From: Actinomycetota bacterium
GTDB lineage: Bacteria > Actinomycetota > Acidimicrobiia > Spongiisociales > UBA5794
Length of the DNA stretch: 37,558 nt
Assembly (NCBI GenBank): GCA_030123765.1
Contig: JASJXX010000016.1
Span: forward strand, 1 to 37,558
Direction of reading: 5' to 3'
Shown here: positions 2,021 through 4,970 of the stretch, piece after piece
Layout of the letters: each line of letters starts with the position of its first letter
How positions within the stretch are numbered: position 1 is the first letter of the stretch
Position numbers and translations under genes: made by a program
Notes under the pieces: model-generated
Seen by the model: the letters and a program-made list of their open reading frames with translations, nothing else
Told to the model about the DNA's origin: nothing
Databases searched by the model: none

Positions 2021-2701
2021 CTACCCCCTCTGCGCGAGGAAGTGGAGGAGCATCGAGGAGACCGTACCGATCGCCCCCGTATTGATCCCCTCGGGGATGA
2101 TGATGTCCGCGTAGCGCTTGGACGGCTCGACGAATTGGTAGTGCATCGGGCGCACCGTCTTCTCGTACTGGGCGAGCACAGACTCGATAGATCGGCCACG
2201 CTCAACGATGTCGCGTTGGATCCTGCGTATCAATCGAATGTCTGCCTCAGTGTCGATGTACACGCGGACATCGAAACGTTCGCGCAGCTCCGCGTCGGCG
2301 AGCAGCAGAATACCCTCGACGATCACTGCCGGTTCGGGATCAAGTGTGATGGTCTCGTCGGTCCTCGTGTGAGATGCGAAGTCATACACGGGCCGTTCGA
2401 TCGAATGGCCGTCGCGAAGCAGATCGAGATGCTCCGTCAGAAGCTCCAACTCAAGGCTGTCAGGGTGGTCGTAGTTGATCTTGAGCCGATCTTCGAACTC
2501 CAGGTGGGACTGATCGCGGTAGTAGGCGTCCTGCTGGAGGTAGATGACTTTGTCGCGACCCACGAGATCAACCACCGAGCGGGCGATCGTCGTCTTACCT
2601 GACCCGGATCCGCCGGCGATGGCGATGAAGAGCGGCCGTTCCTCCCCTGCGGCGGGTCCGAACTGATGACCAGCGATGATCTCGTCAATGTTGAGCGGCA
2701 T
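2021..2701 (-). CDS. udk: Uridine kinase (uridine/cytidine kinase)
   Basis: Phosphorylates uridine and cytidine to UMP and CMP in the pyrimidine salvage pathway, in the cytoplasm. The 226-residue product has the P-loop GGSGSGKT at about residues 30-37, then YLQQDAYYRDQSHL, the NYDHPDSLE motif that is diagnostic of uridine kinases, the YDFASHTR segment, and VIVEGILLLAD, where the EGI strand precedes the lid. RRIQRDIVERGRS contributes the lid arginines. The N-terminus is about 20 residues longer than in E. coli Udk. It lies 35 bases downstream of the DUF4097 gene on the same strand and may be the last gene of that operon; no functional link between them is evident. Confidence 0.95.
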   Translation of the reverse strand: MPLNIDEIIAGHQFGPAAGEERPLFIAIAGGSGSGKTTIARSVVDLVGRDKVIYLQQDAYYRDQSHLEFEDRLKINYDHPDSLELELLTEHLDLLRDGHSIERPVYDFASHTRTDETITLDPEPAVIVEGILLLADAELRERFDVRVYIDTEADIRLIRRIQRDIVERGRSIESVLAQYEKTVRPMHYQFVEPSKRYADIIIPEGINTGAIGTVSSMLLHFLAQRG

Positions 2702-2736
2702 GACTGATAACGCTAGTCGCCGGACGTGCGCTGTAG

Positions 2737-3507
2737 CTACCAGGGACGGCGCAGCGTGGCGTTCCCGCTGAAGGACTTCATCGTCAAGGACATTCGATGC
2801 TTCTTCTCGCCATCAGAGGGTGTCAGCGTGCTCCGGAATTCGCCCGACATCAGCGCGACCTTCACGTCAACTGTCATGCCTGCCACGAGTCCGACGACAG
2901 CGTCTCCGCTCATTGTCTTGATATCGAGGTCGACGCCCTTGAACTCATGGATATCAACATCTCCAGAAGCCGCCCTGATCTTCGCTGTATTGGTGACCGT
3001 GCCAAGGTCGATGGTGCCGGAGGCTGTGTGGACGACGACGTCGCGAACGATGTCGACATGAATGTCGCCGCTCGCGGACGTGAGAACCGCGTCATCTACG
3101 GACCCGACGATCGTCAGATCGCCCGCTGCGATCTTGACCCTCACATCCCCAACTGCTTCATTGAGGTGTACGTCTCCTGCCCCGGTTTTCACGTTGACGC
3201 TCTCGAGCCTCACCGCGATTGCGACGTCGCCCGCTCCAAGGTTCACTCGAACGATCCCGCCGGGTGGCGTGGTGATCACGACATCCATCGTCTTGAACAG
3301 CCACCGATGCTTCTGATGGCCCGAGCGGACCGACACTGTCCCGGTCGTGGCTTCGATCTGCGTCGTCTCAACCGTCTCGTCGTCACCGGAGAGCGCAACC
3401 GTGACGGCATCTCCGTCGGCTTCGCGAATGATCACGTCGCCTGCTCGTAACGAAACTTCAATACGTGGCGGTCCAGAGACGTCGAACGATTCAGTGCGCG
3501 AGGTCAT
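2737..3507 (-). CDS. DUF4097 beta-strand-repeat protein
   Basis: The 256-residue protein is almost entirely short beta strands carrying a recurring GDV/SGD pattern (GAGDVAI, GAGDVHL, AAGDLTI, ASGDIHV, ASGDVDI, MSGDAVV). This is the signature of the DUF4097 family, predicted to fold as a right-handed beta-helix-like solenoid. No signal peptide, membrane segment or lipobox is visible, so it is probably cytoplasmic. The molecular role is not known; some DUF4097 proteins are associated with envelope or stress regulons, which cannot be tested here. Its ATG overlaps the TGA of the upstream ribbon-helix-helix gene by four bases (ATGA), so the two are probably translationally coupled. The family call is firm; function is open. 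Confidence 0.85.
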   Translation of the reverse strand: MTSRTESFDVSGPPRIEVSLRAGDVIIREADGDAVTVALSGDDETVETTQIEATTGTVSVRSGHQKHRWLFKTMDVVITTPPGGIVRVNLGAGDVAIAVRLESVNVKTGAGDVHLNEAVGDVRVKIAAGDLTIVGSVDDAVLTSASGDIHVDIVRDVVVHTASGTIDLGTVTNTAKIRAASGDVDIHEFKGVDLDIKTMSGDAVVGLVAGMTVDVKVALMSGEFRSTLTPSDGEKKHRMSLTMKSFSGNATLRRPW

Positions 3508-3953
3508 GTCTCGACCGTCCCTTCAAAAGTCGACCGTGAGGACTTCCTGAACGCGTCCGCCGATCCGCTGAGTGCTCGCACAACGAACGCGTTCACGGAG
3601 TCGCCAAATTCAGACGCTGCCGCCTCGAGATCCCCCTTCAGGTCTTCGGGAAGGCGCACAGTCATGCGCGCATCGCAATCTTCCGTGCTGATCTTGACAG
3701 CCTCCGTGCTCGGCCTCACCACCAGCATCGGCTGACCGTCGGAGAGCACCACATCGACGCTCGACGTCGGAAGCTGTGCACTCACTTCGGCCGCTGCCTG
3801 TTCAGCGAGATCGAAGGCAACCCGGTGCATCGCGGGCTCAAGTGCGGCGAGGACTGCCTCTCCCGCGGCCGCAACAGCGGGATCGCTCCCCGCAATGCGG
3901 AGTTGACTCTCTACGACGTTCCTCAGTTCTCCCATCACGCTCTCAATATCCAT
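3504..3953 (-). CDS. Ribbon-helix-helix (Arc/CopG-like) protein, partner of DUF4097 gene
   Basis: A 149-residue protein whose C-terminal third carries a likely ribbon-helix-helix fold. MTVRLPEDLKGDLEAAA at residues 97-113 would be the DNA-contacting strand and first helix, and FGDSVNAFVVRAL (116-128) the second helix, ending near residue 130. The N-terminal 60 residues are alanine-rich and helical, and the middle (64-90) looks like short beta strands. RHH proteins usually bind operator DNA as dimers, so a regulator of its own operon is a reasonable inference. A non-DNA-binding scaffold is also possible. The start overlaps the small upstream ORF by 11 bases and the stop overlaps the DUF4097 start by four. 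I do not recognise a named orthologue. Confidence 0.75.
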   Translation of the reverse strand: MDIESVMGELRNVVESQLRIAGSDPAVAAAGEAVLAALEPAMHRVAFDLAEQAAAEVSAQLPTSSVDVVLSDGQPMLVVRPSTEAVKISTEDCDARMTVRLPEDLKGDLEAAASEFGDSVNAFVVRALSGSADAFRKSSRSTFEGTVET

Positions 3954-4101
3954 GCGTCTCCCTGGTGATCCGGCTCTCTGTTCCGACTGCCTCTCGCCCT
4001 GCGCGCACGAGACGCATCAGCCTGTCTCCTCCACCCCTCATTGAGGCGACCCTTCTGTCGTGAGCGGCCCATACGATCTCTGGATTGTTCTGCCACAACA
4101 T
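3943..4101 (-). CDS. Small basic protein, 52 residues, unknown function
   Basis: This short reading frame begins MLWQNNPEIVWAAHDRR and ends in an arginine-rich stretch. Its ATG at 4101 is preceded by a perfect GGAGG (4109-4113) with a 7-base spacer, the strongest ribosome site in this operon. An in-frame ATG at 4140 would give 65 residues but sits inside the predicted promoter, so I prefer 4101. The frame overlaps the ribbon-helix-helix gene start by 11 bases, as expected for coupled translation. The product has no membrane segment or known motif that I can see. It is either a real small first gene of the operon or a translated leader peptide. Confidence 0.5.
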   Translation of the reverse strand: MLWQNNPEIVWAAHDRRVASMRGGGDRLMRLVRAGREAVGTESRITRETHGY

Positions 4102-4130
4102 AACGCAGCCTCCATTCCTTTGTCGTCGTG

Positions 4131-4159
4131 TTGATGTCATTATGATGTCACTCTATAGT
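4131..4159 (+). promoter_or_regulatory. Predicted promoter of the TPP-riboswitch/thiamine operon
   Basis: TTGATG (4131-4136) and TATAGT (4154-4159) are separated by exactly 17 bases, a good sigma-70-type arrangement. Transcription would begin near 4166, about 45 bases before the riboswitch aptamer. A closer TATGAT at 4197-4202 is an alternative -10 but lacks a convincing -35 at the right distance. Confidence 0.45.
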
Positions 4160-4170
4160 CATTCTGTCAA
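4142..4170 (-). promoter_or_regulatory. Predicted promoter of the small ORF/RHH/DUF4097 operon
   Basis: On the minus strand a perfect -35 box TTGACA (4165-4170) is followed after 17 bases by CATCAT (4142-4147), which matches the -10 consensus at four of six positions. A second possible -10, CATAAT (4139-4144), would need a 20-base spacer. The predicted start lies about 35 bases before the GGAGG of the small ORF. It physically overlaps the plus-strand promoter reported at 4131-4159. Confidence 0.55.
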
Positions 4171-4209
4171 GACCTATTTACGGCCCCGCTCTCCGCTATG
4201 ATCTGTCTA

Positions 4210-4309
4210 CTTCCACACCGGGGAGCTCGGAGATACCGGGCTGAGAGGGTGGCACTGCACTGCATAGCCATCGACCCGTTGAACCTGAGCTGGGTAATGC
4301 CAGCGGAGG
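4210..4309 (+). promoter_or_regulatory. TPP riboswitch (THI box)
   Basis: The leader contains the hallmark conserved elements of the thiamine pyrophosphate aptamer: ACACCGGGGAGCTC near 4215, the CTGAGAGGGT pyrimidine-sensor region (4241-4250), and GAACCTGAGCTGGGTAATGC followed by CAGCGGAGGG (4281-4310), the pyrophosphate-sensor half. CTTCC (4210-4214) can pair with GGAGG (4305-4309) to close helix P1. That GGAGG lies 10 bases before the ATG of the next gene and abuts a second AGGAG (4311-4315). Ligand-stabilised P1 would therefore hide or crowd the ribosome site, which argues for translational control. I see no U-tract terminator between the aptamer and the gene. Binding of TPP would switch off the kinase and transporter downstream. 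Confidence 0.97.
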
Positions 4310-4319
4310 GAGGAGTGGC

Positions 4320-4970
4320 ATGAGCACAGCACGGGCCCGGATCGTCATCATCACTGGCGGAGACCTCTTAATCGAGCCTGCCGTCGAAGACGCTGACTTC
4401 GTGATCGCCGTCGATTCGGGATACGACCACGCCATGGCCAGGGCCATTCACGTCGATCTCCTCGTCGGCGACATGGACTCGATCACACCCGGAGGGAGAG
4501 ACCACGCCGTCGCGTGCGGAGTCGTCATCGAGGAATATCCCGGGGACAAGAATGAGACCGACCTCGAGATCGCGATCGGCGCAGCGGTGTCGCGAGGCGC
4601 TACCTCCATCGACATATACGGCGGCGAGGGCGGACGTCTTGGACACCTTCTCGGCATCGCGCTGAGTACTGCCGGCCCGAAGTGGCACTCAGCCAACCTC
4701 ACCTGGCACACCCGCACGGGCTCCCTGCGAACAGCAACACCGGGGCGTCCTGTCACCCTCCCAACCTCAGTTGGGGAGATCGTGACGCTCCTACCGGTTG
4801 GCGATGTTCACGGTGTGACCGCGACCGGGGTGCGCTGGCCGCTCACCGACGCGTCGCTCACGCTCGGTACCACACGCGGCGTCAGCAACGAGGCGACACA
4901 GGCATACGTGACAATCGAGGTTGGCGACGGCACTCTCCTCGTCATCCAGGAAGGACCATCTATCCCATGA
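4320..4970 (+). CDS. Thiamine pyrophosphokinase
   Basis: Transfers a pyrophosphoryl group from ATP to thiamine, giving TPP directly. The 216-residue length fits the family. Visible are AVDSGYDHA (about residues 30-38), the metal-binding GDMDS motif (about 50-54), GDKNETDLEIAI, which matches the family's KD-x-TD-x-E-LAI motif, and the GGEGGRLGHLLGIAL segment. In most family members that last motif reads GGRLDH or GGRFDH; here the Asp is Gly. The C-terminal half forms the beta sandwich with SNEATQAYVTIEVGDG. The gene lies directly behind the TPP riboswitch and its TGA overlaps the ThiB start (ATGA). This context makes the assignment secure. Whether the Asp-to-Gly change lowers activity is unknown. 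Confidence 0.93.
   Translation: MSTARARIVIITGGDLLIEPAVEDADFVIAVDSGYDHAMARAIHVDLLVGDMDSITPGGRDHAVACGVVIEEYPGDKNETDLEIAIGAAVSRGATSIDIYGGEGGRLGHLLGIALSTAGPKWHSANLTWHTRTGSLRTATPGRPVTLPTSVGEIVTLLPVGDVHGVTATGVRWPLTDASLTLGTTRGVSNEATQAYVTIEVGDGTLLVIQEGPSIP

Follow-up and report, generated by a model that had tools for sequence, protein, structure and literature searches.

Toastrack proteins are widely distributed among bacteria. The families DUF4097, DUF2154 and DUF2807 have been unified under this name and argued to act intracellularly as a docking platform, and one sentence of the same paper mentions an actinobacterial operon of ABC and Toastrack genes in which a ribbon-helix-helix (RHH) factor takes the place of a GntR factor (PMC11237479; for this and the three papers cited next, our statements refer to the available excerpts). 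DUF4097 genes of "unknown" function have been reported in an antibiotic gene cluster, one of them beside DrrA-type transporter genes (PMC9866976), and Listeria DUF4097/Toastrack genes are under PadR control or bacteriocin-induced (PMC6624303, PMC12791056), lmo0601 lying within a PadR-repressed operon (PMC6624303). Here we describe a 37,558-nucleotide stretch of contig JASJXX010000016.1 from an Actinomycetota bacterium (the window), in which a single minus-strand operon, running from 4101 down to 2737, encodes a basic microprotein, an RHH protein and a Toastrack (DUF4097) protein. We consider it to be a module in which an RHH repressor, translated together with its Toastrack partner, regulates its own operon and, in relatives, is connected to efflux (probability about 0.7). 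The RHH protein very probably recognises a repeated 8-letter word before its own operon and, in related bacteria, before efflux-pump genes. If this is true, actinobacteria would have a circuit that controls efflux genes, and an RHH family would offer a clean case of a specificity switch of one residue and one base pair. The short operon pairs a Toastrack protein with a DNA-binding protein of predicted operator, which opens the role of the former to a direct test using the two proteins in purified form and a 40-bp probe.

As in the actinobacterial RHH-Toastrack-ABC operon (PMC11237479), the RHH gene of the window lies directly beside the Toastrack gene; unlike that operon, the window has no ABC gene in its operon, which is followed by udk, while the version with a DrrA-like ABC gene was seen here in Streptomyces-type loci. 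An initial annotation, made from the window alone, had not recognised the three genes as a named system. The RHH-Toastrack pair is not wholly without a name, being already present in the paper just cited. The microprotein, the operator, the code at residue 98 and the major facilitator superfamily (MFS) targets described below are absent from the available excerpts of the four papers. Literature searches with DUF4097, Toastrack and RHH surfaced nothing on the microprotein, operator, residue-98 switch or MFS targets, broader RHH searches gave nothing on the operon itself, and none of the literature found joins DUF4097 with HicB. The Lia/Psp Toastrack proteins (LiaG, YvlB; Listeria lmo0601 and lmo2487) likewise carry a Toastrack domain and are encoded alongside regulators or stress partners, but the window has RHH in place of PadR or a two-component system and no Psp partner within the locus read: PspA, PspC and LiaRS were not found among the genes of 2021-4970, the rest of the genome not being searched. 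MetJ has tandem met boxes over its own promoter, abutting at 8 bp. With MetJ, Arc and CopG repressors the RHH protein shares its fold, a basic beta strand and tandem short palindromic boxes over its own promoter, and it differs from them by an N-terminal helical-hairpin domain, the Toastrack partner and 8-bp boxes at 11-bp pitch. HicB/TacA-type antitoxins have the RHH DNA-binding segment in common with it, whereas no toxin partner was found for it and efflux genes appear as further targets in relatives.

The initial annotation had read the three genes as a regulatory module, with RHH as regulator and the solenoid as sensor, and had made this depend on conservation of the trio and of the basic DNA-contact strand. 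The gene overlaps that it gave agree with ours: the microprotein gene (3943-4101) overlaps rhh (3504-3953) by 11 bases, and rhh overlaps the Toastrack gene (2737-3507) by the four bases of an ATGA stop/start (3504-3507), all on the minus strand. The trio is conserved, with Toastrack directly after RHH in 30/30 nearest loci fetched. The ATGA overlap is found in 29 of these 30 and in 70/107 distinct loci of a wider set, deduplicated from 185 with an RHH match. Among 49 loci (L031-L079, including some re-fetches of earlier loci), 44 have a Toastrack match within the short flank, and the short flanks of L048, L050, L051, L077 and L078 have none. RHH relatives occur in 44/60 nearest genomes (E 1e-3); a profile search matched RHH in 29/119 genomes of the class and 35/296 of the phylum, and a Streptomyces-type RHH profile matched 101/296 genomes of the class to which the Streptomyces-type genome belongs. 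The 52 named relatives from a contig scan include Acidimicrobiia, Rubrobacter, Euzebyaceae and Ilumatobacter records, and a few are labelled as other phyla (Armatimonadetes, Acidobacteria), which we take, unchecked, as possible bin labels. Translation in a fixed ratio, earlier suggested for all three genes, fits the RHH-Toastrack pair with its conserved ATGA overlap but not the microprotein, whose stop position, counted from the start of rhh, ranges between -123 and +22 nt; the 11-base overlap is not conserved.

The RHH protein (149 amino acids) matches PF05534, "HicB family", at residues 94-128 (E 7.5e-5; 23.0 bits, cut-off 21). Its C-terminal part, residues 95-138, has the beta strand, two helices and basic contact strand (A95-R96-M97-T98-V99-R100) of the RHH (MetJ/Arc) fold, and R96 and R100 are invariant across 47 aligned RHH proteins (motif R96-x-T98-x-R100), so the basic strand is kept in homologues. 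Profile matches to DUF1778-type, KacA and CopG chains are weak (E 0.0055-0.06). The structure model (mean predicted local distance difference test, pLDDT, of 83) confidently gives residues 1-81 as a helical hairpin and a beta hairpin, followed by a C-terminal RHH; a Foldseek search found AtaR and Arc with probability 0.98-0.99 but E 0.3-0.6, and the fold search with the N-terminal part yielded no convincing relative. The Toastrack protein (256 amino acids) combines a PF13349 (DUF4097) match (E 1.5e-19) with the beta-solenoid fold of this group: its AlphaFold model is all beta with mean pLDDT 96, and its nearest Foldseek matches are 3lyc, 3pet, 4qrk and 4opw (E 1e-8 to 4e-6). Scored against the LiaG family (NF049997) it reached 53.6 bits, the curated cut-off being 285. 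It starts with M-T-S-R and is read as cytoplasmic because no signal peptide or membrane segment was seen by eye.

The operator consists of tandem 8-bp near-palindromes, TGAYRTCA at 11-bp pitch, at 4132-4150 on the promoter, inside the region 4131-4170 that the initial annotation had singled out. Motif comparison places the two boxes, TGATGTCA / TGACATCA, at 4132-4139 and, 11 bp from the first, at 4143-4150, and a motif scan suggests a possible degenerate third box with two mismatches 11 bp further (4121-4128). The minus-strand promoter (4142-4170), whose register recurs in relatives, consists of TTGACA (4170-4165), a 17-bp spacer and CATCAT (4147-4142) and is overlapped by the boxes. The word TGACATCA was found in 50/74 upstream regions versus 0.8 in shuffles; at least one TGAYRTCA lies within 400 nt upstream of rhh in 90/107 loci, against 2/107 for the 400 nt downstream of the start. 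Successive boxes are spaced by exactly 11 bp in 74/84 gaps of the group with threonine at RHH residue 98 (T98). In 55/90 box loci a TTGAC[AT] is in register with one of the boxes, and 51 of the 55 have CATCAT at 17 bp; the register of the window, 20 bp from TTGAC[AT] to a box, was counted 52 times among the box loci. The genome of the window (2.2 Mb) contains a single exact tandem, and the tandem was also found in 30/60 relatives and in 59/138 genomes of the order, the reversed-pattern control giving 0 throughout (0/138). Among the 60 genomes it is present in 29/41 with RHH (E below 1e-10) and in 1/19 without. In eight actinomycete genomes of 4.6-9.7 Mb, a triple-box pattern with one mismatch allowed has a single match, at the rhh start codon, in six and none in the other two (control 0). 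The conserved trio, the contact strand and the operator within 4131-4170 make a regulatory module with a DNA-binding RHH protein as its regulator a well-supported prediction.

The letters of the operator vary with residue 98 of the contact strand: Asn98 (Streptomyces-type) goes with TGGYRCCA and Thr98 with TGAYRTCA, TGGCACCA being the predicted counterpart of TGACATCA for the Asn98 version of RHH. In a first set of relatives, TGAYRTCA was found in 83/88 with T98 and 0/10 with N98, and TGGYRCCA in 4/88 and 9/10, respectively. After this rule was set, 30 further loci were fetched, 27 of them new. All 16 N98 loci (13 new) had TGGYRCCA, L257 also having a TGAYRTCA; all 11 T98 loci had TGAYRTCA, L266 having one box of each kind; and two S98 loci had hybrid boxes, L265 not being typed by the pattern of the script. 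In an alignment of 134 rows, the 99 with T98 comprise 89 with TGAYRTCA, none with TGGYRCCA, two tied and eight with neither, and the 24 with N98 comprise 23 with TGGYRCCA and one with none.

The link to efflux comes from the operator sites of relatives. Across the 138 genomes of the order, the exact tandem has 25 sites that are not at the rhh operon; every one was inspected, and they belong to 17 MFS genes (one a fragment), three DrrA-like ABC genes, two ATP-grasp genes and three unclear cases. A first set of 14 places (L114-L127) gave nine MFS, two DrrA-like ABC, two ATP-grasp and one unclear; a second set of 11, from genomes fetched after the efflux hypothesis had been written down, gave eight MFS (L188 as a fragment only), one ABC and two unclear. 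The MFS start codon is often at most 30 bp from the operator site. The MFS proteins match PF07690 and PF05977; in NCBIfam they are nearest to TIGR00900 and Mef(A), with drrA nearest for the ABC proteins, but we claim no substrate for either because all these matches fall below the curated cut-offs. A sequence search for PDB relatives of the MFS protein found none at E 0.001. Of 30 actinomycete loci, 20 have a DrrA-like ABC gene in the flank that was fetched, and longer stretches of L233 and L234 also show one. The efflux link would thus be in trans, by a shared operator, in several families of the order and in cis in Streptomyces-type genomes; in the family of the window it is not visible.

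The operator, its overlap with the promoter, the covariation with residue 98 and the co-encoding of the two proteins are established at the level of sequence, and from the operator conservation and the covariation RHH dimers are predicted to bind the tandem boxes. It is strongly supported that these dimers would occupy 8-bp boxes (TGAYRTCA) one helical turn apart across the promoter, where they would presumably repress their own operon. The same operator on promoters of MFS efflux-like and DrrA-like ABC genes in related families suggests that the module governs an efflux response there, and in Streptomyces-type relatives an ABC transporter gene comes after Toastrack within the locus itself. 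The Toastrack protein, made in step with RHH through the ATGA overlap, would most likely act on it as a bound cytoplasmic co-regulator and, possibly as a sensor, would lift repression in response to the envelope or to an exported compound. The microprotein, in all likelihood a real peptide, may join the interaction as a third component or act as a leader with a regulatory function. In the genome of the window only the autoregulatory site was seen, with a divergent thiN promoter-like site under the same operator. A broader version we put forward tentatively, as a possibility short of even odds: a phylum-wide split one-component regulator, in which the cytoplasmic Toastrack would sense envelope or drug stress and strip or tune an RHH repressor reading the 8-bp/11-bp-pitch operator (Thr98/Asn98 switch, A:T/G:C), freeing efflux pumps, with the microprotein as a third signalling component in Acidimicrobiia.

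Several observations weigh against the repressor module with its efflux link. No RHH match was found in 16/60 relatives, and one genome (G052) has three operator places while RHH was not found in its 92%-complete assembly, which may reflect a missing contig or a lost regulator. A tree built without the contact-strand columns needs just three residue changes and two operator changes, with one independent pair on well-supported branches, and for this reason the covariation is to be taken as a strong association from few events. No second exact operator was found in the genome of the window or elsewhere in its family, and three two-mismatch sites (L081, L083, L084), considered as a further regulon in that genome, lie inside open reading frames (ORFs) and were rejected. 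The MFS homologues of the window's family, including the genome's own MFS homologue fragment L227, have no operator.

It is very unlikely that another regulator binds the operator, TGACGTCA being a general palindrome, with the RHH-Toastrack operon merely one of its targets. The assignment of the RHH protein to the operator is drawn from sequence, and G052 would agree with such a regulator, but the operator tracks RHH presence (29/41 versus 1/19), its letters vary with the RHH contact residue, and six of the eight actinomycete genomes have their one triple-box match at the rhh start. A toxin-antitoxin pair, in which RHH would serve as an antitoxin like HicB/TacA while the toxin would be DUF4097 or the microprotein, seems only remotely probable. 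The PF05534 match and the weak resemblance to DUF1778/AtaR-type antitoxins speak for it, and the operator-overlapped promoter and the overlapping genes are typical of such pairs; on the other side, none of the three proteins matches a toxin family in Pfam or NCBIfam, DUF4097 is a Toastrack solenoid, a thiN-like gene lies near the pair in 22/30 nearest loci and the operator is common to transporter genes. An adjacent HicA mRNA-interferase toxin, which would mark a HicAB system, is absent, the neighbours of rhh being the Toastrack gene and the unmatched microprotein.

Rather than a sensor, the Toastrack could be a scaffold or effector, for membrane repair or adhesion, that shares no more than its autoregulation with RHH; we find this doubtful, since the close ATGA coupling to a DNA-binding protein, seen in many loci, suggests complex formation. 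Similarly unlikely, in our view, is a small ORF that serves as a translation-attenuation leader peptide instead of encoding a working protein. Its place between operator and rhh, its strong variability between lineages and the efflux genes among the targets of relatives would suit a leader. Against this, its conservation is highest at the N-terminus, an R-L pair follows some 33 columns later and the C-terminus varies; no terminator-like hairpin was found at 3850-4330; and its amino acids are under purifying selection. In the proposed module the microprotein would either take part or regulate translation.

The microprotein (MLWQNNPEIVW...) starts at the ATG at 4101, with a GGAGG ribosome-binding site at 4109-4113 on the minus strand, and is 52 amino acids long; read from another ATG in the same frame, at 4140, it would have 65, but in relatives the first residue is the methionine of MLW... 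It has no Pfam or NCBIfam match. Homologues open with M-L-W-Y-N-N-P in the family of the window and with other forms elsewhere. Of 77 loci in relatives that have an operator box as well as 80 nt or more ahead of rhh, 62 contain a small ORF there of 22-75 amino acids preceded by a Shine-Dalgarno sequence, versus 8.4 expected from shuffles, and its start lies a median of 35 nt past the last operator box. The proportion of synonymous differences (pS) exceeds that of non-synonymous ones (pN) in 13/13 closely related pairs, which share rows; a 14th pair (L066/L067) was dropped, its ORF being part of another gene. On these comparisons the microprotein is a real gene under protein-level selection. 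Streptomyces-type loci, with the operator at the start codon, leave little or no room for it. In Rubrobacter-type loci (L246, L032, L034, L035, L178) a microprotein-like frame runs on into the RHH frame with no stop between them. This may be a natural microprotein-RHH fusion, but RHH has its own GGAGG-like site and GTG there.

Downstream of the trio on the minus strand follows a uridine kinase gene (udk, 2021-2701; TIGR00235 and NF004018 above cut-off), perhaps co-transcribed with it. On the plus strand the divergent neighbour thiN (4320-4970; TIGR01378), for a thiamine diphosphokinase, is preceded by its thiamine pyrophosphate riboswitch (4209-4329; RF00059, 64.4 bits), and both are outside the module. 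The thiN/thiamine genes may be co-controlled by RHH, because the operator also covers a promoter-like site towards thiN on the plus strand (4131-4159; TTGATG, 17 bp, TATAGT), detected by consensus scan. Thiamine genes as the purpose of the module were considered in view of the frequent thiN-like neighbours and rejected, as the operator is also found without a thiN-like gene.

Some operator-linked genes of relatives have recurrent neighbours of their own. At L114, L116 and L183 a P-type cation ATPase gene (family search for L114 only) is divergent from the MFS gene, and one operator may serve both. At L117 and L122, in two genomes of one genus, the operator stands in front of an ATP-grasp protein (PF24923/PGM1_C) that has an acyltransferase-3 membrane protein nearby. 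The MFS gene adjoins small proteins that resemble by eye bacterial-microcompartment shell/EutN-type genes at L118, L120 and L125-L127. In one family (L123, L190, L192, L194, L188) it adjoins a gene whose start resembles by eye DNA polymerase III alpha (PHP domain), with the operator near or between the MFS and polymerase-like genes.
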